A stretch of DNA of 47,448 nucleotides from positions 1-47,448 of the IMG/VR virus record IMGVR_UViG_3300036818_000041; one strand, given 5' to 3'. The position numbers were made by a program, and so were the translations under genes. Numbering within the stretch: the stretch's first letter is position 1; each line of letters opens with the position of its first letter. Shown piece by piece: positions 5,245 to 41,803 of the stretch. The notes under the pieces were generated by a model that was given only the letters and a program-made list of their open reading frames with translations, made no database searches and was not told the origin of the DNA. Origin of the DNA: a virus.

Positions 5245-6168
5245 TTAGGTTACAGTTCCGGTTCCAGACAAGCCCATCTTAGGAAGATCGACACTTCCTG
5301 CTGTGATGCACTTCCAGACTTGACCGGTAACTGTGTCGTATCCCCAATCTCCTACAGAAGCTTCCTCTGGGAAGTCCAGATCGCCAGTAAGATCCCACCA
5401 GAAGGCGACATCGTCGGGCGCTTCGTCCGCATATAGATCGCCGTTGCTGAAATCGACACCCATGTCGCCAGCAAGTGCTCCAGCAGGGAAATCAGTAAGA
5501 CCAGTGAGGTCATACCAGACACCGATTGGCGGATTCGTCAGAAGAGTCACAAGTTCGTCTGCTGTAGGCATGCGCGGGTCATTGTCGTCATCTCCGTAGA
5601 GAATATCCTCAAGCCGGGCGATGATGTACGCATTAACGAAACGTGTATCAAATATGAAGTGTGATGTCGGCCTGTATCCTGCTGGACTTTCTGGAAAAGT
5701 CGTAATGTTCCAGGAATATGTCTTAGCTGAAGAAGTATCAGTATTTGTGGAATGCGTGTAGTCCGCAATCTTGGCCATAGCATTGTAGACGACATGCAGT
5801 TTGTAACCAAACGACGTTCCAGCTGAATCATTACCGATCAATGTCCGGTAAGAGAAGTCAAACGTTTCCTTGGGCTGGTCGGCTACGTACAGACCAGTCG
5901 ACAATCGGAGTCTGCCGGCACACGGAGCGAATTCGTTAGGTGCACCGAAGGCTTCGATCGATCCTGCAAAGTCTTCACCCGCCGGAATGTTCAGAATCTT
6001 CCTGCCGTCGAGGTAATACGGCTGAGCATCTCCGCCTTCTGGCGATTCTGTGACGCTTGCAAGACCAGACCACGGAACCGCGACCTCAGAACCGACGTAG
6101 AGCATACCTCGGTCGATTCCTGTGTGATACAGACGCGTTCCCGGGTCGTCCCAGGTAACTTTTGGCAT
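5245..6168 (-). CDS. Major tail protein paralog 2 with repeated C-terminal modules
   Basis: A 307-residue member of the three-gene tail-tube family (VTWDDPGTRLYHTGIDRG at the start, DGRKIL, FAGSIEAFGAPNEFAPC, FDFSYRTLIGND, YKLHVVYN, LEDILYGDDDNDPRMP). Beyond about residue 215 it has an added region made of two similar units, VWYDLTGLTDFPAGALAGD and FWWDLTGDLDFPEEASVGD, each followed by a (V/Y)D-x-(S/T)-x-G-x-(L/V) strand. It ends with one KM module (LPKMGLSGTG), the repeat seen many times in the large adhesin at 14593-18435. Probably a decorated tube subunit. The ATG at 6168 lies just past the end of the chaperone gene. Confidence 0.75.
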   Translation of the reverse strand: MPKVTWDDPGTRLYHTGIDRGMLYVGSEVAVPWSGLASVTESPEGGDAQPYYLDGRKILNIPAGEDFAGSIEAFGAPNEFAPCAGRLRLSTGLYVADQPKETFDFSYRTLIGNDSAGTSFGYKLHVVYNAMAKIADYTHSTNTDTSSAKTYSWNITTFPESPAGYRPTSHFIFDTRFVNAYIIARLEDILYGDDDNDPRMPTADELVTLLTNPPIGVWYDLTGLTDFPAGALAGDMGVDFSNGDLYADEAPDDVAFWWDLTGDLDFPEEASVGDWGYDTVTGQVWKCITAGSVDLPKMGLSGTGTVT

Positions 6169-6722: not shown

Positions 6723-7589
6723 TCAGGAGTGGACGAAGTACCACTCGTCGACGGACGGCTCGCTGAACACGTAGCCTGCTGCCGGCCGGGCGTTCACCAC
6801 AGTGTCGGCAGTGATCGCTGGCTGAGCGCCTGCTTCCACGTCCACGCCAGCGATGCTGTAGATCACGCCAGCGGTCGACGGGATCGTGATGACGTTCGAC
6901 GCGAAGGTCGGGGCCGTCGGAGCCACTGCCGTGACGGTGCCAGAGAACAGCGCGATGACGTCGTCGGGCGACGGAAGCGACGGATCGGTGCCGACGGTGC
7001 CGTAGAGGAGCTCTTCCAGATCGGCGAGAGCGGCAGAATCGACCTTCGACGAGTCGAGAACGATCAGGGCCGTCGGCTGCATACCGGATACGGACACCGG
7101 TGAGCAGTCAAAGTCCCATGAGAACTGCACCGCGGCCGGCGAGTCGTTGATCGTGGCGAAGTCCTTCTCAGACGGCGCCGCAGTGGCTCCGTACACGAGG
7201 TGGATCTTGTAGCCGAGATCCCCACTGACGTCGTTTCCGACTTTGGTGCGGTAGCACAGCCCGAAACTCTGCCGAGTCTGCTGACCCACGACGAGTCCTG
7301 CGACAGGAGCCGCTGTTCCGTCGCAAGCACCGAACTCATCCGGATAGGTGAACGCCTCGAGAGTTCCGGCGAAGGTCTCGGCCGATCGCAGGTCGAGATA
7401 CTTGATGTTGTCCGCGTACTGTGGGTTCGACGCAGCTCCGCCCGGCTTCTCGTTGACCGCAGTCAGCCCATTCCAGGCGAAACCTGCGTCGTAGAGAGAT
7501 GTCGAAGCGTTCAGCGGGTACAGAACGCCGTGGTCGACTCCGGTTTCGTACTTGCGGTTGCCGGTGTCGTCCCAGACAACTTGGGTCAT
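6723..7589 (-). CDS. Major tail protein paralog 1 with C-terminal Ig-like domain
   Basis: A 288-residue tail tube protein. Core blocks: VVWDDTGNRKYETGVDHGVLY, FAWNGLTAVNEKPGG, FAGTLEAFTYPDEFGACDG, QSFGLCYRTKVGND, GYKIHLVYG, LADLEELLYGTVGTDPSLP. From residue 224 an added domain begins PTAPTF, with TIPSTAGVIY and YVFSEPSVDEWYF. It is the same module found at the C-terminus of the capsid fusion protein (8243-10327). It is the first tube gene after the connectors and has the best canonical fit, so I take it as the main tail tube subunit. GC content looks higher here and in the capsid gene than in their neighbours. ATG at 7589 follows GAGGAG. Confidence 0.85.
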   Translation of the reverse strand: MTQVVWDDTGNRKYETGVDHGVLYPLNASTSLYDAGFAWNGLTAVNEKPGGAASNPQYADNIKYLDLRSAETFAGTLEAFTYPDEFGACDGTAAPVAGLVVGQQTRQSFGLCYRTKVGNDVSGDLGYKIHLVYGATAAPSEKDFATINDSPAAVQFSWDFDCSPVSVSGMQPTALIVLDSSKVDSAALADLEELLYGTVGTDPSLPSPDDVIALFSGTVTAVAPTAPTFASNVITIPSTAGVIYSIAGVDVEAGAQPAITADTVVNARPAAGYVFSEPSVDEWYFVHS

Positions 7590-23065: not shown

Positions 23066-25714
23066 CTAACGGTGAAGAGCAGTGTTGAGTGTACTGACTG
23101 GTATGCCTAGTGAGTCAGCGATCTCTGCCTGTGTGTAGCCTGATGCTAGCCTAGCCTTAGCTATAGCCAGCTTAGACGCAGTCATTACAGTAGCTGCTCT
23201 CGGTGTGGCTAGCTTACGTACACGATCAGCATCTGCATTCTCAAGGATCTGACTAAGCTTACTGCCACTGATTGCGCCCTGTTGGATCGCCTTCCATTCG
23301 CTATCTGTTATCTCTACTTGATTCTTCTTAGCACCTACCCGATCACGGGCGGCGGTGAGTGCTTGGCCCTTGACCTTCTTAAGATCGGCGGCATCCATAC
23401 CGGGATTATCCTGGCGCTTGGCCGTGACTACTGCATTAGCAATCAGTTGTGCTTGACGTTCGAGTGGCTTGTTCTTAAGGGCAAGGTTAAGCTTGGCATT
23501 GAGTGATGCCACCTCTGAGTGGTACGTCCGCTTAGCAGTAGGTGAGTACCGCATGCTGCCCGTTGAGAAGGCGGACTTGCGTGCACTGTTAGCCAGGGTC
23601 TTCATTGCATTCGAGTGGTCTGCATAGATGTTCTCTATGGGCATACCACTAGACAATGACCTGGCGTCCTTGGCCTCTGCTAGCTTAGTGGATGATGAGG
23701 TACGGACAATCGTTCTGCCCTTGGCATCCTTGAATGACTCACCTGTTTCTTCATAGACTTTCTCACCTGTCGCTGGGTTAATAGCGCCACCCTTTGATGC
23801 AGGCCTTAGTCTACGTTCTGGAACCCTGATCTCTGAACTGGCTCTTGATACGATGGTAGATGCACCAGCAAGACGGCCAGTAGAACCGCGACCCTGATAC
23901 TTCTCTTTCAGTGAAGCAATTCCGTTGTCGAGATAAGACTGCTTATAGTTCAGGTTGTGTTTCTCAGCATCAATCACAACCATTGAATGACGAACTGCTC
24001 GAGCAAGCTCGTCAGGCTTAGCGCCCTTAATCGACATATCAGTGATCAGGTTTGAAACATCACCCATCTGTTGCTGCTTAGCGCGAGAGGTGATCGTCTT
24101 CATTCCTGTATGAGCAGGATACATCTCTTTGGGATCGAAGTCTTTCAGGCCACTCAATGGTGCAGAGGTCTTAACTTCTCTCTTGTTGTTCGGGATGACG
24201 AGAACTGTGTCGCCATCAAAGTCGGCACCTGACAAACGTTCAGCAATCTTGGGATGAATGCCAATGGCGTCGATAGCATTGCCGAGTGCTGCCCTTGATT
24301 CGGCATGCTTGTTGTTTACTGTAGCTTCAGGTATCTCGAAAGGCCCACCATGAGGGAAGCGAACTAGCGCGACCTTTTCACCATTACGGTAATTAGGCGC
24401 GTAGACTTCCCCTTCTTTCAAGGTCTCGATAGGAAGGATGACATGCGTTCCTTGCCGAGGAAGTGCTGCTGCCTTGAGATGCACTGAAGCTGAGTCAGCG
24501 CTATCTGCGAACTTCTCAAGCAAAGCTTTCTTTACGACAGGGTTGGTGAGACGCATGATCTCATTAAGCTCATCCTTGCGTGAAGCCAACGCAAGATCGA
24601 GCTGTCGCTTAGCCAGAGCAGTGCTCTGCTTCGACAAGACCTGACTAGACAGACTGCGAGACCAGTCTTTCCAGTCGCCTTCTTCGTTCACGATGTTCAT
24701 TGGCGAAAGCTTGCGCTTACCTGAGGAATCCAGGTAATGCCTTTGACGAACAGTAGAACCGAAAGGATTGTCTTCGTCCTTCTGTACTTTCATGACATCA
24801 AGCTTATTGCCTGTGTCGTGTTTGTTCGTGTTGAACAGCAGATCTACCCCATGAGGCAGATCGTTCTTGTACATCGCCATGCCTTTGAGGTAGTGTGTTC
24901 CATCGACGGCGATGCGTACTTGTGCGTACCGAGCTGAACCCAGCGAAATGTCTTTCACACCAGGACGCACATAGATGACCCCATCTGCTTTGGTTCCACC
25001 TTGTTCGGCGTAACGAATACCAATGCGGCTGGAGTCAACGTTTCGAGGCGGCTCTATACCTAGATAGGTATGACCGCCGTCTTCACTGTACGCAGCGATC
25101 GATTTGATCTTGGTTGGATTCTTGACGATGTCGACGTACTTGGTTCCGGGCGGAGCAAGAACCTTGATGGTCGTCTTCTTGCCCGTGCCTAGTTGAGCGA
25201 CCTGAACGTTGTGTAGTTCATAGCCTTCTTCACGGAGCACAGCAGCCGCAGTCGAAAGCCTTGTATTGGTAATGCCGAGATGATTCTCGGTGCCTGCACC
25301 AATGTCCAGATAACCGTCTTTGCCTATCTTGTCTCGAAGAAGGTTCGACGTAGTGATCAGAATGTCTTTCTTGTCTGCCTGAGATGGATCAAGCAATGCA
25401 CGAACTGTTGATTCGTTGACCTTCATACGCTGACCGATAGCCGTGTTCGACATGCCTTTTGCCTTAAGCCTCACGGCTTGGGCAGCATCGGCGGCACGAG
25501 TTTCGTTCTTGGCAATTGCACGAGCAGCTCTGAGTGCAGTTGTCGTTGTCCCAAAGCCTGCTGCTATCTGAATCTCAGACAGACCTTTGGCTTTGAGACT
25601 TTCGACATAACTCAGAAAGCCACGACTTTGTTCGACACTTTCACCAGAACCCCACGGATAGCGGCCAGATCGGCGAAGAACTCCGTAGTGAAACAGTTCA
25701 GCTGTACCGACCAC
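23066..25714 (-). CDS. Candidate single-chain DPBB RNA polymerase (DFDGD motif)
   Basis: An 882-residue protein. The sequence RLSGADFDGDTVLVIPN puts a DFDGD motif at residues 498-502, the metal-binding signature of the beta-prime double-psi beta-barrel (NADFDGD in cellular RNAP) and of YonO, crAss-like and QDE-1 single-chain enzymes. Upstream, VRFPHGGPFEIPEATVNNKH (451-470) fits the strand set before the catalytic loop, and DGTHYLKGMAMYKNDLPHG (271-289) contains a Lys-Gly that could belong to the second barrel. Helix-turn-helix-like segments lie at about 43-68 and 87-108 and at the C-terminus (YTQAEIADSLGIPVSTLN). The N-terminal LFHYGVLRRSGRYPWGSGE motif is common in phage proteins. It could transcribe phage genes, or make RNA on ssDNA or RNA templates. 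Activity is inferred from motifs only. Confidence 0.65.
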   Translation of the reverse strand: MVGTAELFHYGVLRRSGRYPWGSGESVEQSRGFLSYVESLKAKGLSEIQIAAGFGTTTTALRAARAIAKNETRAADAAQAVRLKAKGMSNTAIGQRMKVNESTVRALLDPSQADKKDILITTSNLLRDKIGKDGYLDIGAGTENHLGITNTRLSTAAAVLREEGYELHNVQVAQLGTGKKTTIKVLAPPGTKYVDIVKNPTKIKSIAAYSEDGGHTYLGIEPPRNVDSSRIGIRYAEQGGTKADGVIYVRPGVKDISLGSARYAQVRIAVDGTHYLKGMAMYKNDLPHGVDLLFNTNKHDTGNKLDVMKVQKDEDNPFGSTVRQRHYLDSSGKRKLSPMNIVNEEGDWKDWSRSLSSQVLSKQSTALAKRQLDLALASRKDELNEIMRLTNPVVKKALLEKFADSADSASVHLKAAALPRQGTHVILPIETLKEGEVYAPNYRNGEKVALVRFPHGGPFEIPEATVNNKHAESRAALGNAIDAIGIHPKIAERLSGADFDGDTVLVIPNNKREVKTSAPLSGLKDFDPKEMYPAHTGMKTITSRAKQQQMGDVSNLITDMSIKGAKPDELARAVRHSMVVIDAEKHNLNYKQSYLDNGIASLKEKYQGRGSTGRLAGASTIVSRASSEIRVPERRLRPASKGGAINPATGEKVYEETGESFKDAKGRTIVRTSSSTKLAEAKDARSLSSGMPIENIYADHSNAMKTLANSARKSAFSTGSMRYSPTAKRTYHSEVASLNAKLNLALKNKPLERQAQLIANAVVTAKRQDNPGMDAADLKKVKGQALTAARDRVGAKKNQVEITDSEWKAIQQGAISGSKLSQILENADADRVRKLATPRAATVMTASKLAIAKARLASGYTQAEIADSLGIPVSTLNTALHR

Positions 25715-27109: not shown

Positions 27110-28258
27110 CTACTCCATTCCCGCTATCTGTTTCATCCCTTTTGTCTCATTGAACACGCGTTTTTCAGAAAGCGCACAAAAAAGCGCACAATCGATCAGG
27201 CTAGAGGACCTCAGAATGTAGTATCTGAGATCTGTGTATGGCGTATTTAGCCTATCGATGCGGCCCTTTGCCTGCTCCACAGCACGGTAAGAATAGTTCA
27301 TCGAGTAGAATGCCATCGTATCTGTCTCTATGCAGTTCCATCCTTCCGCCCCCGCGGCGTACTGCACGAGGTAGATCCACTCGTCTCCTTCAGGTATCGG
27401 CTGATGTTTGTGACCATTCCATTCAGCCACAGTTGTGCCGATGTTGCGAAGGCTCTCCAACTCGTAATCGAAGTTGTAGAAGACAATGAGTCTTGGATGC
27501 ACGACAAGGAGATTGCGAATAGCCTCAAGTCTCGACGAATCCGAATTGACGACTCTTCGCATGAGGCTGAAAAGTTCTGAAACGTTCTGGATAGGTCGTT
27601 GCTCAAGATAGTTCCATCTCCTCTTCCATACCGTGTCGAACAGTTCCTTGTCGTAGCTGACAAACACGTCCTCCTGATGCCTGACGGTTTTCCGCTCGTA
27701 TGGCATCTCGACAAGGATGCTGTGAAGGTAATCTGCCAGCTTGTGGGTTCCAAGAATTCGCTCAACCTTCGGGTACTTAGCGAATCGGCTGAAGACCACA
27801 TGCTCCCTCACGAACTCTGTCCGGTTCTTATAGAAGCCGTTGGCAATGAAGACCGGTATGTAGTCCAGCCATGTGTCACCAGGCGTAGCACTCAGCAAGA
27901 TCCACTGATTGGTCTTGGTCACCTGCAGGAACGCTTTGACCCATACTCCTGATCCCACCACTCTCTGCTCGTCGAAGATGAAGAATGCATTCTCCACGTC
28001 CTCGTAGTCCAGCAAGTTGTTCCACGAGTCGACCACCACGTCTACGCCGTACAGTTTTGCCTCTGCTTGCCAGTCGCCGCTGTCCCGCTTCTTCGCCGTT
28101 GTGATCACATACAAGGCGGTCCAAGGCGCAAGTGTGATGTAGTACGCCATGGCCGTTCTGGTCTTGCCTGTGCCTGTGCCTCCCTTGAGAATGTTGCCAT
28201 TACTCAGCTCATTCACCGCCTTCTGCTGATGCGGCATGAGTGGTGGGTTGACTATCAT
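27110..28258 (-). CDS. SNF2/DEAD-like superfamily 2 helicase
   Basis: A 382-residue SF2 ATPase. Motif I GGTGTGKT (residues 26-33) follows a Q-type MPHQQKAVNEL; motif II is FIFDEQR (DEQR at 96-99); motif III is LLSATPGDTW (123-126 SATP). The second lobe shows LIVFYNFDYELESL, VQYAAGAEGWNC and motif VI EQAKGRIDRL (about 328-337), then LRYYILRSSSLIDCALF. This is the compact SNF2-like helicase common in phage replication modules. ATG at 28258 follows CGGAGG; the GTG eight codons upstream is less likely. It is the last gene before the intergenic region. Confidence 0.9.
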   Translation of the reverse strand: MIVNPPLMPHQQKAVNELSNGNILKGGTGTGKTRTAMAYYITLAPWTALYVITTAKKRDSGDWQAEAKLYGVDVVVDSWNNLLDYEDVENAFFIFDEQRVVGSGVWVKAFLQVTKTNQWILLSATPGDTWLDYIPVFIANGFYKNRTEFVREHVVFSRFAKYPKVERILGTHKLADYLHSILVEMPYERKTVRHQEDVFVSYDKELFDTVWKRRWNYLEQRPIQNVSELFSLMRRVVNSDSSRLEAIRNLLVVHPRLIVFYNFDYELESLRNIGTTVAEWNGHKHQPIPEGDEWIYLVQYAAGAEGWNCIETDTMAFYSMNYSYRAVEQAKGRIDRLNTPYTDLRYYILRSSSLIDCALFCALSEKRVFNETKGMKQIAGME

Positions 28259-28290
28259 GATCCTCCGAAACAAATAGGGCACGTTTAACC

Positions 28291-29023: not shown

Positions 29024-29257
29024 CTAGATCTTCTCAGGGAATGTTTTCAGGTGCGCATCCACCTCCTTGAGTTTATTGCGGTAGGCCTTTTCGTCGTCAG
29101 TGCCCCGGTATACGCCGGACACGTCGAACTCGATGCCGGGATTCCACAAGGCGTGAATGAGTTCCTGGCGGAATGTGGTTGCTTCGTACTGACTGAGTGT
29201 GGTGACGTCGACGTCTGCGAGCGCTACCTCTTCGCCACCTGTGCTGTTGACACCCAT
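29024..29257 (-). CDS. Hypothetical small protein
   Basis: A 77-residue protein: an acidic N-terminus (GGEEVALADVDVTTLSQYEA), a helix TTFRQELIHALWNPGIEFDV, then SGVYRGTDDEKAYRNKLKEV and a short end. The ATG at 29257 shares one base with the stop of the preceding gene (TGATG), indicating translational coupling with the Acb2-like gene. No family recognised. Confidence 0.55.
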   Translation of the reverse strand: MGVNSTGGEEVALADVDVTTLSQYEATTFRQELIHALWNPGIEFDVSGVYRGTDDEKAYRNKLKEVDAHLKTFPEKI

Positions 29258-29466
29258 CAGTTTCCTGAATCAGGCGGAGTGTATGGAGGCCGGCTGGGTT
29301 TCCAGTCAGTCTGATCTTTCTCGAGCGCTTCCTTGGTTGGCCCACACCGGGCAAGCCACATCTCGCACTCGTCCAGCTTGGTGGCGGCCAGGCTCCTTTC
29401 CCGGCTCGGTTCGTACTCCTCGAGGAGCTCACGCATCCTGGCGAAGTGGTAGGTGGGGTTCATCAT
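29257..29466 (-). CDS. Acb2/Tad1-like small helical protein (candidate signal sponge)
   Basis: A 69-residue protein. Residues 7-40 read YHFARMRELLEEYEPSRERS and then LAATKLDECEMWLARC. The P-x-RE-x-SLA-x-T-K-L-(D/E)-E-x-x-MW pattern is that of the Acb2/Tad1-type helical hairpin (SRERSLALTKLEEA-like), a fold that oligomerises and binds cyclic nucleotides to block CBASS or Thoeris. The C-terminal about 25 residues are Pro-rich. The aromatic/Ala segment after MW in known members is altered (LARC). The gene is coupled to its neighbours (ATGA/TGATG overlaps). The link is by sequence pattern and moderate; it may be only a distant relative. Confidence 0.5.
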   Translation of the reverse strand: MMNPTYHFARMRELLEEYEPSRERSLAATKLDECEMWLARCGPTKEALEKDQTDWKPSRPPYTPPDSGN

Positions 29467-29759
29467 CCTGGTACCCTTTCCCTGAAGAGAATGCCCGCGT
29501 TCTGCATTACCCTGATCGCGTTGATGGCCTGCTTCTGGGTGAGACCCGATGCCGACAGGGCAGTCAGCACTTTGTACAACGTGTCGTCGGTGTGATGTTC
29601 GGCTGGCGGATCCGTATTCTGATGTGCCTTATAAAGCGCTGCCTCCGCACTGCAATTAACGCACAGTCCAGGACCACCACAGCGGGCGATTTGAATAGGC
29701 CGGTCCTCAGAAATCATGACAGTGCCTGAGATGTGATGACCGTGTGCGGTCCAGGCCAT
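29463..29759 (-). CDS. Small protein with CGGPGLCxxC motif
   Basis: A 98-residue protein whose ATG at 29759 overlaps the preceding stop (TAATG). The N-terminal half has WTAHGHHISGT and PIQIARCGGPGLCVNCSAEA, in which the Cys residues (C-x5-C-x2-C) could bind zinc. The C-terminal half is helical: LYKVLTALSASGLTQKQAIN and AIRVMQNAGILF, resembling a small HTH-like segment. The HGHxIxGT...RCGGPGxCxxC layout is common among uncharacterised actinophage proteins. Function unknown; DNA or metal binding is possible. Confidence 0.65.
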   Translation of the reverse strand: MAWTAHGHHISGTVMISEDRPIQIARCGGPGLCVNCSAEAALYKAHQNTDPPAEHHTDDTLYKVLTALSASGLTQKQAINAIRVMQNAGILFRERVPG

Positions 29760-30268
29760 TACTCCTCCTCTGGCTCGTCGTGCATCATCACAGCCACCGC
29801 TGCACTGTCCGGCACGTCGTAGTACTTCTGCTCGAGCTCGTCCTCCCTGATCGTCACGTAGATGGACTTGAGGTAGGCCTTGACCCCGGTCTTCCCACTC
29901 ACCTCCCACTCATATGGCCTGATGATCATGTCGACGTTGACGATCTCGGCCCAGTCCAGCAAGTTGACCATGCTCTCATCGAGTGGCGTCTTGCCGTGAC
30001 CGGTGATCAGAACGATGCGAGGCGGGTTCTTGCCGAAGGCGACACTGACCTCGAGCCTTGGCTGTGGTTTGTCGCCCTCTTCCCGCGGCTGAAGGTACTT
30101 CACGTTCCAGCCATCAGCCAGCATTGCCTCCGCTTCATCGTCTTCAAGAAGCACGTTGAAGTTCCGCTTGCCCTTGGCGTTGTAAAGCCCTTCCTCTCCC
30201 GAGAAGTTGCGGAAGAGAATGCGCCGGTCTTCGAGCACGACTGGCTGCAGACGGTTGTCGCCCGCCAT
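29759..30268 (-). CDS. Putative ssDNA-binding-type protein
   Basis: A 169-residue acidic protein: VVLEDRRILFRNFSGEEGLY, NAKGKRNFNVLLEDDEAEAM, GWNVKYLQPREEGDKPQPRL, VSVAFGKNPPRIVLIT, then LLDWAEIVNVDMIIRPYEWE, VSGKTGVKAYLKSIYVTI and an acidic tail (MMHDEPEEE). The beta-rich core plus a strongly acidic C-terminal tail is the outline of phage single-stranded DNA-binding proteins, and its location in the replication block agrees. I recall close relatives in many Gram-positive phages without firm function, so the role is inferred. The tail would recruit partners such as the polymerase. Confidence 0.5.
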   Translation of the reverse strand: MAGDNRLQPVVLEDRRILFRNFSGEEGLYNAKGKRNFNVLLEDDEAEAMLADGWNVKYLQPREEGDKPQPRLEVSVAFGKNPPRIVLITGHGKTPLDESMVNLLDWAEIVNVDMIIRPYEWEVSGKTGVKAYLKSIYVTIREDELEQKYYDVPDSAAVAVMMHDEPEEE

Positions 30269-32408: not shown

Positions 32409-35400
32409 CTAATCCCTGAATTGCTCGATGTCCCCGAACTTGCTGATGTTCTTGATCGCCGCGTCGACCAGCTTCCGGAAGTAATCCAGATCGATAGTGT
32501 CTTCAAGTCCGAGATTCCGGACCGTGACAGCTTCTCTCCAGAAGTAACCCTTCGTACCGCTCGCCGAATGAAACTCGCCATCCTTCCCGCGAAGAAGTAT
32601 GCCCCCTCCGGTCCCTTCTCGAACAGGAACAAACGAGCCAGAACGGCCCACGAAATGTGGCTCTCCATCTCCGAAATCGAGATAGAGCGCGGCAGTGACA
32701 GTTTTGGTTTCACAGTAATCCTTGAATTCAATAGGCTCCCCACTGAACAAAGTCTTGAAGACGAACGGATGCTGGAACTGCGCCCCTGTGGCCGTCCAAA
32801 TACCGTCTTCTTTCTTGGCGACGTAGACCGCATCATTGACAAGGCAGAATTTCTTGTACGTGCACTCATGTTCGAAGTCGTACCCGTACTTCTGCCCAAA
32901 GTTGATGACGTAATCGATGATCTCCTGGGTTGCCTCAGGGATCTTGATCGAATCTGTCTTGATGTGGACGACCTTGAAGCCTTGCTCTTGCACTGCTTCC
33001 TTCAGGTCGACCATGAACAGAGCACCACGCTTGGCGACGATGTTGTCTTTGTTGCGAACGTCCCGGAACGGATTCGGGAAACTGGCTGATGTCAGCCCGT
33101 AGACGATGTTGATTGCCAGCTTGAGTGCATCTGCGAGTGCTGCTGCATTGTCCGCTGTATCGAGATAGGGACTGAGTTTTCCGCCGAGCATTCGCCGAGC
33201 TGAATCGTAATCCTTGCGCTTGATTGCAATCCTTGCTGCTTTGAGGTCCGAATAATTCTTCGTATAAGGGCCAAACAAAGACAGCTTCTCGATTGTTGTA
33301 GGATGCATCGAGGCAATATCGAGCACCGCCACATCGGTATAGATTCCTGGTTCGGCATAGACGTAACCTCCTTCGCCGGTCTCCTCGCCCTTGTAGGTGC
33401 TTTTGCCGTAATCGAAAATGTATCCCGGGAACTCCTTGGAGAGGTCGGTATAAACGAAGTCGCGCTGTGGGTCTCTCTCGTCACCGAAGATGATCTTTGC
33501 TGCGTGCCGCTGAGTTGTGTCGTTGACTCGCAGACCGCTCAATTCGGCGAGGATCTGCCTGGCGACGTAGTCCTGCATCCGGTCTTCGAAGACTTGCTCG
33601 AGTGTGACGACGTCGTTGCAGCAGTAGTCCACGACTCGTTCCCACATAGCAGGATCGACTGGCTCATCCCAGGGCAGGTTGAGCTCTTCGTGATTTAGGC
33701 CCAAGTCGATCTGGAACTTCTTGAGCCCTTGCTTGACACTGGAGAAATCCCAGACGTCAGCGTATGACAAGTTGTACGCATCGCCGAACATCCCGGCCTT
33801 CTCACCGGCAACCACTCTCTGACTGAGCAGGAACAAGTCATGCTCTTTGTAACCCATGATCCGGGCATAGAGAATATGATTGTCGTAGCGCCGGTTGTTG
33901 AACCCGACGAGATTCATATGCGTGAGTTCTTCGATCTGCTTGCTGCCCGGATTGATCATCCTGACAATGTCGGCATCTCCGCGGTACTTCCAGCAGACCA
34001 CGAAGAGGTTCGGGTACACCTCAGTGTCGAAGAACACCAGCCGGTCATCCTTGGGTGCCACCGGCTCGGGATTGTGCGCCACAGCCTCTGAAGCGAACTT
34101 CATCGACATGACCTGCTTGACGCAATAGACCGACTGATTGGTCGATCCGTTGGCAAAGGCCAGTACACGGCCTCGCAAGTCGGTCACGTCATACTGCATC
34201 CCTGAGTTCCATGCATCCTCAAGGACCTTCCAGATGAAGTCGATACTGGGCTTTGTTCCTGGGTGAATCTCCTTCCGCAGATTTCGCTGGATCAGGTCAC
34301 GCAGAGCCCTCTCACTCCGCATGGTTTCAGAGTCAAGCACACGCTTCTCCTTTAGCGGCAGACCGCTGTTGAGAGTCGCGACAGGAACATCGTTGCAGGT
34401 CGTCAGTTTCCGCCTCAGTGAAGCGTCATCTGGAAACGTCTTGACCTCAATCCCAGGGCTGTAACTGTGACTCAGCTCTGAGACGTCCCCATCGTAGACA
34501 TAGTGAAGATGAATGCCTGCACCGCTCTGACTGAATTCCGCGTATGTCGGTGGCCACTTACTAGCAGCCTCGAGGTTCAGAGCCAGATTCTTCTGACCGT
34601 CATCATCCCTCAGATCGAAATCGATGACTATGTACTGCAGGTTCAGTTTGACGAAGTGGAGTTTCGACGTGTCAAGCTCCGCCAATGTGGTTTTGACTTT
34701 GGCCCAGGACTTTCCTGGCTTGCCATCGTCTGTTGCGTACTGAGCCGGCTGCCCTGCGAGCAACCCATCAAGAAGTGATTCCTGGCACTCCATCTCAAGG
34801 GACGGAGGAGGTTTGTCCGGTGGTGGGGTTATTCCTAGCTTCTCCACCTTGAATTCGGTGTACAGATTGGTAACCTGCACGCCATCGACTCTGCCTCTCT
34901 CAGAGAAGTGATTGAAATAGTTCCTGAGCTCATCCCGGAACTTTCCCAAGTTGAGCCGCCACTCGTATCCGCCTTCGTCGCAGAACGCCTTGTAGAGTCC
35001 CCAGGCCTGCTTGAGAGTTGTCCCATCTTGCTGCCTGTAGAGCTCGTAGTTCTCCGTCAGATAGTTGTAGAACATGTCGGTTCTGATGATCATGTCCGTT
35101 GGCCGGTACATCGAGTATCTGTTGGGCCCGAGCGACCGGTAGATCTCCAGGCAGTAGTGAGCAATAGCGCCGAGTTCGAAGTTGATCCCGTGCTTCATTG
35201 CCTCGTATTCACTGGACGACAGCGTATTGCCTGTCGGATGCACATCGATGAGACGCCTGATGATTCCTGATTTGGCATCTGTGATCTTTACCGACTGGTT
35301 TGTGCCGATGAAGAGCAAAGCGTTGACCCGGCCGGTGTACGGCGCCTTATACTTCTCGTTGATGATAATCTCCTCGTGAGAGACTATCGAGTTGAGCCTT

Positions 35401-36110
35401 GTGTTGTCGTCAATCTTTGACAAGTCGCCGTCATGCTGAATTGCCACCAGCGGATTGGTCTTGAATGACTCAGTGGCAAACGCGTTGGTTGTTCCGGTCA
35501 GGGCTTTCGCATCGAACGTCGCGGTGTAACCCTCGAAGAGCTTGCTCAGGATGTTCAGGAACGTCGACTTGCCCGTCCCGGCCTCTCCATACAAGACAAA
35601 GAACTTTTGCACGTTCTTCGAGTCACCTGCAACGATCGAGCCGATCGCCCATTCCAGCTTCTCTCGCTCATGTGGAGCGTAAAGCACGCTCATCATCCGA
35701 TCATACGCCGCGATCGAGCCTTCTTTCAGCGAATATGACAAGCGCTTTGAACTGTGATCTCCTTTCTTCGGCGGTGTGTCTGAGAATGCCAGGACTCCAT
35801 CCAGCTGCTCATGCGAACTGGGCAAGTTAACACAGTAACTCTTGAAGTCTTTCCATGAATTGCTCTTAAAGCTGCTGAGACTCCGGACCACGACAGGTCC
35901 TTCAAGTTTCTCAGCGCGGGCATACAGACTAGCATCGACAAGACGCTGAACTGTGAACTCGTCGGTAGACCACAGTCCTGCTTCTTCGTCCCACACCGCA
36001 TAAAAGGAACCGCCACGAACCATCAGGTCATGCGCCTTTCGGACGATAAAGTCCGGGTAAAGCTCAATTCCGGTCTTCGTCGGCCTCTCCCTGACCTGAT
36101 AGAAGTCCAT
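32409..36110 (-). CDS. SF3 helicase - primase-like domain - family B DNA polymerase fusion
   Basis: A 1233-residue replication polypeptide. Residues 1-425: SF3 helicase, Walker A GEAGTGKST (175-183), LVAIQHDGD (221-229), sensor FIGTNQS, arginines in GIIRRLIDV. Residues 440-600: AEP/prim-pol-like motifs YIVIDFDL (Asp 497/499), SGAGIHLHYVYDGD (His 534), GIEVKTF. Residues 690-840: 3'-5' exonuclease motifs FFDTEVYP (Asp 695, Glu 697), VGFNNRRYDNHIL, YCCNDVVTLEQVF (Asp 833). Residues 914-1090: polymerase, GGYVYAEPGIY, motif A VLDIASMHP (Asp 931), motif B KLAINIVYG (997-1005), motif C IKTDSI (Asp 1053), then TYKKF. Motif C has Lys in place of the usual first Asp of DTDS. Domain activities follow from the motifs; the order, helicase first, is unusual. 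Confidence 0.9.
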   Translation of the reverse strand: MDFYQVRERPTKTGIELYPDFIVRKAHDLMVRGGSFYAVWDEEAGLWSTDEFTVQRLVDASLYARAEKLEGPVVVRSLSSFKSNSWKDFKSYCVNLPSSHEQLDGVLAFSDTPPKKGDHSSKRLSYSLKEGSIAAYDRMMSVLYAPHEREKLEWAIGSIVAGDSKNVQKFFVLYGEAGTGKSTFLNILSKLFEGYTATFDAKALTGTTNAFATESFKTNPLVAIQHDGDLSKIDDNTRLNSIVSHEEIIINEKYKAPYTGRVNALLFIGTNQSVKITDAKSGIIRRLIDVHPTGNTLSSSEYEAMKHGINFELGAIAHYCLEIYRSLGPNRYSMYRPTDMIIRTDMFYNYLTENYELYRQQDGTTLKQAWGLYKAFCDEGGYEWRLNLGKFRDELRNYFNHFSERGRVDGVQVTNLYTEFKVEKLGITPPPDKPPPSLEMECQESLLDGLLAGQPAQYATDDGKPGKSWAKVKTTLAELDTSKLHFVKLNLQYIVIDFDLRDDDGQKNLALNLEAASKWPPTYAEFSQSGAGIHLHYVYDGDVSELSHSYSPGIEVKTFPDDASLRRKLTTCNDVPVATLNSGLPLKEKRVLDSETMRSERALRDLIQRNLRKEIHPGTKPSIDFIWKVLEDAWNSGMQYDVTDLRGRVLAFANGSTNQSVYCVKQVMSMKFASEAVAHNPEPVAPKDDRLVFFDTEVYPNLFVVCWKYRGDADIVRMINPGSKQIEELTHMNLVGFNNRRYDNHILYARIMGYKEHDLFLLSQRVVAGEKAGMFGDAYNLSYADVWDFSSVKQGLKKFQIDLGLNHEELNLPWDEPVDPAMWERVVDYCCNDVVTLEQVFEDRMQDYVARQILAELSGLRVNDTTQRHAAKIIFGDERDPQRDFVYTDLSKEFPGYIFDYGKSTYKGEETGEGGYVYAEPGIYTDVAVLDIASMHPTTIEKLSLFGPYTKNYSDLKAARIAIKRKDYDSARRMLGGKLSPYLDTADNAAALADALKLAINIVYGLTSASFPNPFRDVRNKDNIVAKRGALFMVDLKEAVQEQGFKVVHIKTDSIKIPEATQEIIDYVINFGQKYGYDFEHECTYKKFCLVNDAVYVAKKEDGIWTATGAQFQHPFVFKTLFSGEPIEFKDYCETKTVTAALYLDFGDGEPHFVGRSGSFVPVREGTGGGILLRGKDGEFHSASGTKGYFWREAVTVRNLGLEDTIDLDYFRKLVDAAIKNISKFGDIEQFRD

Positions 36111-36131: not shown

Positions 36132-36695
36132 CTAGTACATTCCGTTTTCGGTCATGTATTCACCCATCTGATACCAGAGTTCTACTTCTCTCTGATCCTT
36201 GGATGGGTGTCTCAGCGGGAACAAGCCGCCTCTTCCGCTTTCGGTGTACTTCCGTTCACTGAATCTTCTGACAATCCTCTCGATCCCGGAGACGTTGGTC
36301 TTGTTCCGGCAGAACTCATCCGTGAAAGCCGAGAGCCGGAGATTCTGCAAGAACAGATAGAACATCTCCTTGCCCGGGATGTCGATCATGAACTCGGCTC
36401 GCAAAGCTAGTGCGATGAGCACTTCCAGAACACTCGCGTCGGGAAGAAGCAGGTCGATACGATCCAATTCGGATCCGCTGCCGACCCTCAGGAACTCATT
36501 ACGGAGTTCCGCTCCTTCCGCGACACGATTATCGTCATGCGGAACCAGCACTTCGAAGTCCACCTGGAACATAACCTGACACACCTGAGCATAACGACGT
36601 GGCACACCGTCAATTATGATCGGGCTGATCAGGCCATGCAACCAGGCAAAGTACGTCTCTGTGAGAGGATTCTCAGTGGGATCTGCTCGCATCAC
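36132..36695 (-). CDS. Conserved hypothetical phage protein
   Basis: A 187-residue protein upstream of the polymerase fusion. Segments: LTETYFAWLHGLISPIIIDG, VCQVMFQVDFEVLVPHDDNR, VAEGAELRNEFL, LLLPDASVLEVLIALALRAE, EMFYLFLQNLRLSAFTDE, RNKTNVSGIERIVRRFSERK, and a final WYQMGEYMTENGMY. I recall this layout from many Gram-positive-phage genomes, where it is encoded near replication genes; no function known to me. It overlaps the end of the previous gene by 4 nt. Confidence 0.65.
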   Translation of the reverse strand: MMRADPTENPLTETYFAWLHGLISPIIIDGVPRRYAQVCQVMFQVDFEVLVPHDDNRVAEGAELRNEFLRVGSGSELDRIDLLLPDASVLEVLIALALRAEFMIDIPGKEMFYLFLQNLRLSAFTDEFCRNKTNVSGIERIVRRFSERKYTESGRGGLFPLRHPSKDQREVELWYQMGEYMTENGMY

Positions 36696-37423
36696 TTCCC
36701 CCTGTTAGGCCGTCCATAGTTGAGGATCGCCTCCGCATATGAACGAGCATCGAGGACCACTTCAAAGTCGACCTCGAGTTCCTCGTTACGCACATAGCAG
36801 ATATGTGGATCCCCCGAAATGCCGCCGAAACTGAGTGGCGTGAGAGCTCCGACAATCTTGTGATGGTCGCGTATCGGCTGATCTTTCTCATCGACCAGGA
36901 CCTTGTCGCCGCCGTAGTAAGTGATGGTGATGTTTTGTGTACCGGGCGGTGTCTCAGAGAACTCAGCGAGGGAAATACGCCGAGGCTTGCCGTACGTGCG
37001 CTTCTTAGCTTCGACGAACAGATTTCGCTCATCCAGATCAGCCTGTTCCGCGAGCTCTTCCTCAGTCGGCAGACCCTCGAAGGGGTCTTGTGCTGTGGTG
37101 ACGTCAGCAGGCTTGACCTCGGCCTCGGTGCTGGCGCTTTCTCCCACGGTGGGCTCCCCGTCGTCTCCGTTATCACTTTCACCGGCCACGGTTGTGGGGA
37201 CAGGGCGACCGACATAAGACGATCCGGATTCGAGGAAAGCTTTGGCCCTGTCGTTGTAGTGCGACTTGGCCTTATTGACTTCCTCAGTGAGCCGTCGGTC
37301 AAGATCGGCCAGCAGAAGGCGACGGCAAAGCAGATAACCTGCAACACCGCCAGCAAGCAGACCAGCTCCGGCACCGAGTACTGTGGATTTAGCATCCAGT
37401 TTCAGTCCCTTCACGGCGATCAT
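36692..37423 (-). CDS. Membrane-anchored hypothetical protein
   Basis: A 243-residue protein. ATG at 37423 forms an ATGA overlap with the preceding stop; the longer frame to 37498 is rejected. The N-terminus has one membrane segment (STVLGAGAGLLAGGVAGYLL, residues 13-32) followed by a helical CRRLLLADLDRRLTEEVNKA. A Glu/Pro/Thr-rich linker follows (residues 60-130), then a conserved-looking domain: ISLAEFSETPPGTQNITI, TYYGGDKVLVDEKDQPI, FGGISGDPHICYVRNEELEV, DFEVVLDARSYAEAIL. It is next to the DUF6353 gene, which also has membrane segments, so they may act together at the cell membrane. Confidence 0.65.
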   Translation of the reverse strand: MIAVKGLKLDAKSTVLGAGAGLLAGGVAGYLLCRRLLLADLDRRLTEEVNKAKSHYNDRAKAFLESGSSYVGRPVPTTVAGESDNGDDGEPTVGESASTEAEVKPADVTTAQDPFEGLPTEEELAEQADLDERNLFVEAKKRTYGKPRRISLAEFSETPPGTQNITITYYGGDKVLVDEKDQPIRDHHKIVGALTPLSFGGISGDPHICYVRNEELEVDFEVVLDARSYAEAILNYGRPNRGK

Positions 37424-38286
37424 ATCTTGATCGGCCCGTCCACGTTGAAGTCGAGCATGACAGTGTGCTCGATTCCGTTGATGAATGCCCGATTGCACTC
37501 GTCACCAATGTTGTACAAGCCAAAATCCACATGGCCGTCGCCATTGCCGTTGAGCTTCCAGCCGACGATCTGGCCGGCCTGACTGCGCTCGAGACCCAGA
37601 GCCTCATAGACCTCGTTGAGGAATATGTAGCCATAGGCCTGCAGCCGGTCATTTGCCCAGTCCTGCTGGGATCGCAGGAAGAGCAAGTTGTACTCGGGCG
37701 TCTTCGTCCAGTTCCGGCTGCACTCATCGAAGAACCTGGCGTACGGAGACGGCAGCACGTCATCCATGTCGATGACTTCGCCGTCGTGCTCTTCGTCCGT
37801 CAGGTCGGCACAAGTCCGGACCTTCCGGTAGAGCTCGAGCTCCTTCTCTTCTCCCACCGCCTCGGCGACCCGGCGGCGATATGCCTTGAACCCTGCGTCC
37901 AGGGCCGTGTAGGCCGCGACCAGGCTTGCCTGACGCTTCAGCATCATGCCGTGTGCAGACACCACACAGACGATGGACGCCGAACCTGCCGCCAGCACCG
38001 GCCAGTAGAGCTCGGCCAGCTTCAGGCTGCTGCTGAGATAGACGTGAGCCAGAGCCTTCTGCTGCTCCCTGGGATCCTCGTCCTGAGAGGCGTTCTTGAC
38101 CTCTGTGATGTCCTTGGAGATCTCGGGCATGACGTCGACGGCCTTGGCGGTCGCCCTGATGGTGAGTGCGGTAGTGATCGCGAAACCGGCCACACCCGCA
38201 CCGGTCAGGATGGTTGGCGCATTCTTCTGCAAGAAGAACTTGCCCGAGCCAACGGCCCGTGTTGAAAGCAGTGAGAGATTCATCAC
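37420..38286 (-). CDS. DUF6353 family protein, copy 2
   Basis: A 288-residue protein. Near the N-terminus KNAPTILTGAGVAGFAITTA gives one membrane segment, and residues 91-116 (YWPVLAAGSASIVCVVSAHG) another. The middle is helical and charged (FKAYRRRVAEAVGEEKELEL). The C-terminus has PYARFFDECSRNWTKTPEYN, LQAYGYIFLNEVYEALGLER, GWKLNGNGDGHVDFGLYN. The paralog at 41021-41803 shares N-x-PTIL-x-GA-x-AG, the second segment and the FLNEVYEALG/YGFLGLG end region. DUF6353 proteins are of unknown function; the membrane segments suggest an inner-membrane location. Confidence 0.8.
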   Translation of the reverse strand: MMNLSLLSTRAVGSGKFFLQKNAPTILTGAGVAGFAITTALTIRATAKAVDVMPEISKDITEVKNASQDEDPREQQKALAHVYLSSSLKLAELYWPVLAAGSASIVCVVSAHGMMLKRQASLVAAYTALDAGFKAYRRRVAEAVGEEKELELYRKVRTCADLTDEEHDGEVIDMDDVLPSPYARFFDECSRNWTKTPEYNLLFLRSQQDWANDRLQAYGYIFLNEVYEALGLERSQAGQIVGWKLNGNGDGHVDFGLYNIGDECNRAFINGIEHTVMLDFNVDGPIKI

Positions 38287-40815: not shown

Positions 40816-41088
40816 TTATGGTGATGCTTTCGGCGCATCGGCCTTCGTTATAGGCCCAGTAATTTTCGCGAGGTCGTTACGAAGCCTGGCCACCTGATCC
40901 TTGGGCATCTCCTTTCCGGTGTACTTGAAGTAGTACTTCTCGGTCTGCTTGGCCACGATGTACGGCCAGATGAGCCAGAACAGGAAACCTCCCAGCTTCG
41001 GGAACAGTCTCCTGATCCAGCTAGAACTTCCCGTAGTCCTTCCGCGGAAGGCTCTTGTAGCCGATTGCGAGGCAAGGGCGGCCGTCAT
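40816..41088 (-). CDS. Small membrane protein (start uncertain)
   Basis: A frame of 90 residues from ATG 41088, overlapping the DUF6353 gene by 68 nt. The convincing part begins at WIRRLFPKLGGFLFWLIWPY (about residues 25-44), a basic-aromatic membrane segment, followed by VAKQTEKYYFKYTGKEMPKD and ARLRNDLAKITG. Just after the preceding stop there is AGGAGA but no ATG/GTG/TTG follows at the right distance, so a rare start codon or the overlapping ATG must be used. The coding sequence contains promoter-like element D. Probably partners the adjacent DUF6353 membrane protein. Confidence 0.55.
   Translation of the reverse strand: MTAALASQSATRAFRGRTTGSSSWIRRLFPKLGGFLFWLIWPYIVAKQTEKYYFKYTGKEMPKDQVARLRNDLAKITGPITKADAPKASP
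40847..40872 (-). promoter_or_regulatory. Promoter-like element D (weak, intragenic)
   Basis: Minus strand CGCGAA followed by 12 nt and TATAAC (18 nt from CGCG to the -10), matching elements A-C except for the last base of the -10. It lies inside the end of the 90-residue gene. Part of the match could be chance from coding sequence. Confidence 0.4.
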
Positions 41089-41803
41089 CAGCGAGGTGGG
41101 ATGAGAAGACAAGATCGATGAAGTTGTCGAGATTCCATCCCAGCTCATCGCCAAGAGTGACCGGACCCAGACCCAGAAAGCCGTAGAACTCGTTCTGGCT
41201 GGCGTACATGTTGCCGCCCACGATGGACCGGTTGATCTCGTTTGCGGCCTGACGGATCGTTTCGATGTCTCCCCGAAAGTAACGACCCGTCAATGAGTCG
41301 TAGCAAAGCTGATCACCCCCGCCGACGATGACCGTGGTGTTGGTCACCGGGTTCTCCTCGAGCTGCTTCTTGGCGATACCGTCCCGGACCTTCTGCTCCT
41401 TGGTTTCGCCCAGCTGCGCGAGGACCTCGTCCTTGTACTCCCTGAACGCCGTGTCAGCGAGCGTGTAAGCGCCCAGGAGCGCCGCATTTCGCCTGAGCCC
41501 GATCTGGTTGGCCCCCACGATACAAGCGATCGTAGCGGCGCCTGAGAGCCCTGCAGGAGCATATGTTTTCCAGCAGGTTTCGGCAATTTCACGCCGGGTC
41601 AGGTCCTCCCAGCCCTCCTTGGACTCCTTGCCCGCGTTCTTCGCGAGGGAAGCGTCGTCGAGCTGCTGAGAGGCCTTGAGTGTGGCTTTGGCCGTCAGGA
41701 TTGCAGTGGTGATGACGCCGGCAATAGCGGCACCTGACAGAATCGTTGGTGAGTTGTTCTTGAATGTGCGACTGATTGCGTTCAGCCCTGATGAGCGTGA
41801 CAT
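41021..41803 (-). CDS. DUF6353 family protein, copy 1
   Basis: A 260-residue protein: FKNNSPTILSGAAIAGVITT (membrane segment about residues 17-38), a helical linker, YAPAGLSGAATIACIVGANQ (second segment), ALLGAYTLADTAFREYKDEV, a coil, then VGGGDQLCYDSLTGRYFRGD, INRSIVGGNMYASQNEFYGF and LGLGPVTLGDELGWNLDN. ATG at 41803 follows AGGAGAG. It shares N-terminal and C-terminal blocks with the copy at 37420-38286. Both copies lie in the early region, each next to another membrane-type protein. Unknown function; membrane anchoring is predicted. Confidence 0.8.
   Translation of the reverse strand: MSRSSGLNAISRTFKNNSPTILSGAAIAGVITTAILTAKATLKASQQLDDASLAKNAGKESKEGWEDLTRREIAETCWKTYAPAGLSGAATIACIVGANQIGLRRNAALLGAYTLADTAFREYKDEVLAQLGETKEQKVRDGIAKKQLEENPVTNTTVIVGGGDQLCYDSLTGRYFRGDIETIRQAANEINRSIVGGNMYASQNEFYGFLGLGPVTLGDELGWNLDNFIDLVFSSHLADDGRPCLAIGYKSLPRKDYGKF

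Follow-up and report, generated by a model that had tools for sequence, protein, structure and literature searches.

The closest described relatives of the gene analyzed here are the HelPrimPolBs, family B DNA polymerases (PolBs) that have a superfamily 3 (SF3) helicase and a PrimPol domain fused to their N-terminus (Kazlauskas et al. 2020, PMC7544198). That paper traces the first sighting of this architecture to the 2016 survey by Kazlauskas et al. The 2020 paper was the only one to surface for HelPrimPolB or 'helicase-primase-polymerase', and no biochemical study of any HelPrimPolB was found in the literature searched. Related helicases occur in the SaPI5 primase-helicase (7ola), poxvirus D5/E5 and the ASFV PrimPol. 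In these proteins the primase part is N-terminal, the helicase is C-terminal, and there is no PolB in the chain. The PrimPol of phage NrS-1 likewise begins with its AEP (prim-pol) domain and has no PolB domain.

The window, by which we mean the whole 47,448-nucleotide stretch that was analyzed (IMG/VR virus record IMGVR_UViG_3300036818_000041), encodes another member of the HelPrimPolB group. One unbroken frame of 1233 codons with an ATG start occupies the minus strand from 32409 to 36110; the plus-strand reading of this interval contains many stops. A first-pass annotation had read the interval as helicase, primase-like and polymerase domains on one chain. Its reading frame and motifs stand, with every named helicase, AEP, exonuclease and polymerase motif found at the residue numbers it gave, and the only correction is the strand, which it had left unstated. 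Along the chain, an SF3/D5-type helicase is followed by an AEP domain with a probable helix bundle and then by a family B exonuclease-polymerase. This is the HelPrimPolB architecture in each of its domains, and we found no difference from it. Because the same fusion is present in hundreds of phages and already has a name, the gene is a new example of a published and common architecture and not a discovery.

The features of the gene are as follows. Conservation was counted in two sets of relatives, one of 83 sequences and one of 54 that was picked by patterns outside polymerase motif C.

32409 to 36110, minus strand: HelPrimPolB gene, 1233 aa, ATG at 36110, stop at 32409-32411
34842 to 36008, minus strand: helicase module with flanks, residues 35-423, SF3 core at about 168-290
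35562 to 35588, minus strand: Walker A, GEAGTGKST, residues 175-183; G175, G180, K181 and T183 identical in 83 of 83
34347 to 34787, minus strand: AEP catalytic domain, residues 442-588, from AlphaFold, Foldseek and the match to NrS-1
34614 to 34622, minus strand: AEP motif I, D497-F-D499; D497 and D499 identical in 83 of 83 and 54 of 54
34509 to 34532, minus strand: AEP motif II, S527-Q-S-G-A-G-I-H534, within SQSGAGIHLHY (527-537); S527 and H534 identical in 83 of 83 and 54 of 54
34440 to 34448, minus strand: AEP motif III, E555-V-K557; E555 and K557 identical in 83 of 83 and 54 of 54
34074 to 34322, minus strand: helical segment after the AEP core, residues 597-679, four helices (model residues 171-239)
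33591 to 34043, minus strand: 3'-5' exonuclease domain, residues 690-840, with ExoI D695/E697, ExoII D743 and ExoIII Y829/D833
32412 to 33398, minus strand: family B palm, fingers and thumb, residues 905-1233, from the Pol II profile match and the KOD fold match
33300 to 33320, minus strand: polymerase motif A, D931-I-A-S-M-H-P; D931 identical in 83 of 83 and 54 of 54
33096 to 33122, minus strand: polymerase motif B, K997-xxx-N1001-xx-Y1004-G1005, in 54 of 54
32949 to 32960, minus strand: polymerase motif C, K1051-T-D1053-S, identical in 83 of 83 and 54 of 54

The helicase, AEP and PolB catalytic residues are the same in every sequence of the 54-member set and, save for K997 and N1001, each of which is altered in one sequence, in all 83 of the other. 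They are also identical in a 15-sequence alignment of full-length proteins from the window, IMG/VR and named phages that includes Lactococcus phage P078 (39% identity). Because these residues are invariant across relatives, the named motifs are not chance matches. Residues 1-1231 match PHROG 4210, 'DNA polymerase', with 1874 bits. The same PHROG contains Gordonia phage Petito gp64 (annotated 'DNA primase/polymerase' by SEA-PHAGES), which is 58% identical over 99% of the protein and differs from it only by sequence divergence. The sole confident Pfam match on the 1233-aa protein is DUF5906, and the rest of the chain has none. An AlphaFold model of residues 35-1233 has a mean pLDDT of 86.7 and a pTM of only 0.51, so that it speaks for the folds of the modules and not for the placement of one domain relative to another. 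Low-confidence linkers separate the modules, at residues 428-436, 588-597 and 676-684 (model residues 394-402, 554-563 and 642-650). Each of the three domain assignments is borne out by structure prediction and by fold search.

The N-terminal helicase is of the SF3 type, as its Walker motifs had suggested. DUF5906 matches residues 173-286 (E=1.2e-14), from the SF3-type Walker A to the arginine region, and the expected region also matches TIGR01613, the NCBIfam model for the P4-type primase C-terminal family, with a score below the cut-off. A family profile searched against solved structures found the SaPI5 primase-helicase (E=4.9e-10). Model residues 1-374 align with the same protein, 7ola, over 338 residues (Z 23.4, rmsd 4.0), and poxvirus D5/E5 and the ASFV PrimPol share the fold at Z of about 15-19. 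In SaPI5, D5/E5, ASFV and NrS-1 proteins, the helicase segment is C-terminal, starting at about residue 328-440. Thus, the placement of the helicase before the primase in the window protein is indeed a reversal of the usual order.

The middle module takes up an AEP fold from about residue 442 to 588, within the interval 440-600 for which such a fold had been predicted. A model of residues 430-690 built from 78 family sequences has a mean pLDDT of 91.8, and all ten PDB matches that Foldseek returned for it at E <= 0.001 are AEP primases, including NrS-1, pRN1 ORF904 and Sulfolobus islandicus PrimPol. A second aligner matched it to NrS-1 PrimPol (6a9w) with Z 10.0, rmsd 3.5 and 141 residues aligned. 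The likeness is seen by fold comparison only; when the AEP region was searched against the PDB as a sequence profile, no AEP chain matched. On this fold, between the helicase and the polymerase, lie the DxD (D497/D499), SxH (S527/H534) and acidic motif III (E555) of the AEP superfamily, all invariant, which supports the assignment of DxD...SGxGIHLHY...EVK to the AEP type. In the model of residues 35-1233, strands end at D497/D499 and at D931, strands also contain H534 and E555, and D1053 is in a hairpin turn. These predicted positions are as expected for such AEP and PolB sites.

Residues 597-679 probably form a helix-bundle domain, judging from the four modeled helices. Such a domain is typical of AEPs. 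An alignment with 6jop covers both the AEP domain and the helix bundle, but at an rmsd of 10.0. The window protein resembles NrS-1 PrimPol in its AEP fold, its probable helix bundle, a related helicase (Z 18) and an SxS loop before the motif II histidine. In NrS-1 PrimPol, the SPS loop with S108 stands in for a zinc finger in nucleotide binding (PMC8718748), and the analogy suggests that S527 may be the counterpart of S108.

The C-terminal module has all of the family B exonuclease and polymerase motifs claimed for it. A family profile found E. coli DNA polymerase II among solved structures (E=4.8e-07), the expected region matched the NCBIfam DNA polymerase II model with a score below the cut-off, and a single-sequence phmmer search of the PDB matched the helicase and Pol II weakly. 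The fold match to PolBs starts at about model residue 645, and model residues 645-1196 align with KOD PolB (8s84) over 447 residues (Z 16.4, rmsd 7.0).

Motif C of this module reads KTDS instead of DTDS, with a lysine at the usual first aspartate. The first-pass annotation was right about the lysine, which is, however, not a peculiarity of one phage. It is found in all of the 54 sequences chosen without regard to motif C and in every other family member checked, and is thus a trait of the group. The 2020 paper reports that motif C and KxY of HelPrimPolBs are markedly different (Kazlauskas et al. 2020, PMC7544198). Because the lysine is there throughout, we infer polymerase activity and do not take it for granted. 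One could argue that K1051, where an aspartate is expected, has killed motif C, leaving the polymerase domain as a relic, degraded or structural, beside an AEP that does the synthesis; NrS-1-type PrimPols make DNA with an AEP and a helicase alone (PMC8718748). We consider such a relic quite improbable, since it would not keep D931, D1053, motif B and all of the exonuclease residues, which are invariant in the 54 sequences. D931 and D1053 presumably are the pair of metal-ion aspartates expected from family B enzymology. With these and the exonuclease residues intact, the motif C lysine alone is no sign of a dead polymerase.

Two groups of PolBs described in the same 2020 paper bear on how a polymerase with one motif C aspartate might work. 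Primer-independent PolBs (piPolBs) do not have the first motif C aspartate, yet they polymerize well (PMC7544198). The window protein shares this lack but carries its own AEP on the same chain, so that it is doubtful whether its PolB would need to start without a primer. Archaeal B2 PolBs also have one motif C aspartate and are tied to translesion synthesis (PMC7544198), and by this comparison the altered motif C could mark a repair or specialized, translesion-type polymerase and not a replicase. That role appears highly improbable here. The exonuclease motifs of the B2 group are degenerate or missing (PMC7544198) but are intact in the window protein, which also has its own primase and helicase on the chain; and no DnaB_C or PolA match was found in the record of this phage or in those of three related ones.

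The domain order singled out in the first-pass annotation recurs in other phages. In 252 phage records, a single place accounts for at least 80% of the query, with the same order of modules. These are mostly phages of Arthrobacter, Gordonia and Streptomyces, but also of Microbacterium, Bifidobacterium and Lactococcus, and the usual annotation is 'DNA primase/polymerase'. Two scans of IMG/VR found at least 592 and at least 503 relatives among the stretches tested. In genome contigs of bacteria and archaea, a further scan picked up 137, mostly in Clostridia among the matches listed, and often on long contigs, as prophages would be. HelPrimPolB is widespread among phages that infect Actinobacteria and Firmicutes.

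We also weighed whether the fusion could be an artefact of assembly or annotation that joins separate genes. Split relatives do exist: two adjacent genes in Listeria phage LP-083-1 and three ORFs in Bifidobacterium phage BitterVaud1. However, every IMG/VR member that was translated has the fusion free of stops, and its presence over at least 80% of the query and in the same order in the 252 phage records speaks against any error of assembly. The same fusion in independent genomes rules this reading out, and we put its chances at practically nil.

In LP-083-1 (L008:4974-8798), a PolB gene is followed by an adjacent gene in which AEP-like motifs precede an SF3 helicase, and the pair looks like an unfused state of the same three modules. 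The helicase homology is supported. The AEP homology is suggestive only, because an AEP profile matched the gene weakly, although over the right motifs (probability 3.3%, E=0.013). The three modules are apparently side by side in both phages. In LP-083-1, they are in two genes, the AEP-like part precedes the helicase, as is usual, and motif C is NTDG; in the window, the helicase comes first and motif C is KTDS. In BitterVaud1 (L006:6001-10631), a 213-aa ORF with no PHROG match is inserted just before motif A, and Rfam detected no intron in this split locus or in the window.

The genes around the HelPrimPolB gene are also conserved. Their positions were counted in 245 loci; the counts below are approximate, with some contigs included twice and some loci incomplete, and downstream is by median position.

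36132 to 36695, minus strand: 187-aa gene, PHROG 4678, directly upstream; a homologue is upstream of the polymerase gene in 213 of 245 loci
29759 to 30268, minus strand: phage ssDNA-binding protein, Pfam PF24083 (E=2.1e-65); downstream in 220 of 245 loci
27110 to 28282, minus strand: separate SF2-type DNA helicase, PHROG 62 (E=6.9e-53); downstream in 181 of 245 loci

Petito, P078 and RavenPuff have the PF24083 protein as well, and the PHROG 4678 protein is a candidate accessory factor of the replisome. Neither DnaB_C nor PolA had a match in the window record, which may be incomplete, or in those of Petito, P078 and RavenPuff, and this fits a role as main replicase. The gene had been described as encoding a near-complete replisome. 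It does put helicase, primase and polymerase on one chain, but the description is a stretch, because its ssDNA-binding protein comes from another gene and no gene was assigned as a clamp, clamp loader or ligase.

Based on these results, the gene very probably encodes the main replicase of the phage, a HelPrimPolB in which the helicase would unwind, the AEP prime and the PolB extend. At its N-terminus, the D5-like SF3 module is probably a ring that uses ATP to unwind DNA. The AEP domain and helix bundle would synthesize short primers on the single strand thus exposed, and the C-terminal PolB, with its intact proofreading exonuclease, would extend them, the primer probably being passed within one chain or between chains of one complex. 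The ssDNA-binding protein and the SF2 helicase, each from its own gene, may work alongside. D5 relatives of the SF3 module are hexamers in solved structures among the fold matches. If the module is hexameric by analogy, one ring would carry six primases together with six polymerases. We speculate, tentatively, that such a homo-hexameric replisome might pass primers directly between domains and that the invariant motif C lysine might adapt the active site to AEP-made primers; this is possible, though doubtful. If the predicted activities hold, unwinding, priming, extension and proofreading on one chain would provide a compact system for studies of their coupling and possibly an enzyme for primer-free DNA amplification.

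Several other genes in the window, all on the minus strand, were noted. The interval 23066-25714 encodes an 882-aa protein that matches PHROG 4291, 'RNA-dependent RNA polymerase' (1303 bits), and that near both ends has weak matches to the RdRP and HTH domains of Pfam; Petito, P078 and RavenPuff encode it too, so it seems to travel with HelPrimPolB. A 69-aa protein (29257-29466) has a Pfam Acb2_Tad1 hairpin domain above the cut-off (E=3e-7) and may counter CBASS or Thoeris defence as a cyclic-nucleotide sponge. Two DUF6353 paralogues (37420-38286 and 41021-41803) lie a few genes apart, and two major-tail-protein paralogues (5245-6168 and 6723-7589) each match PHROG 2645.
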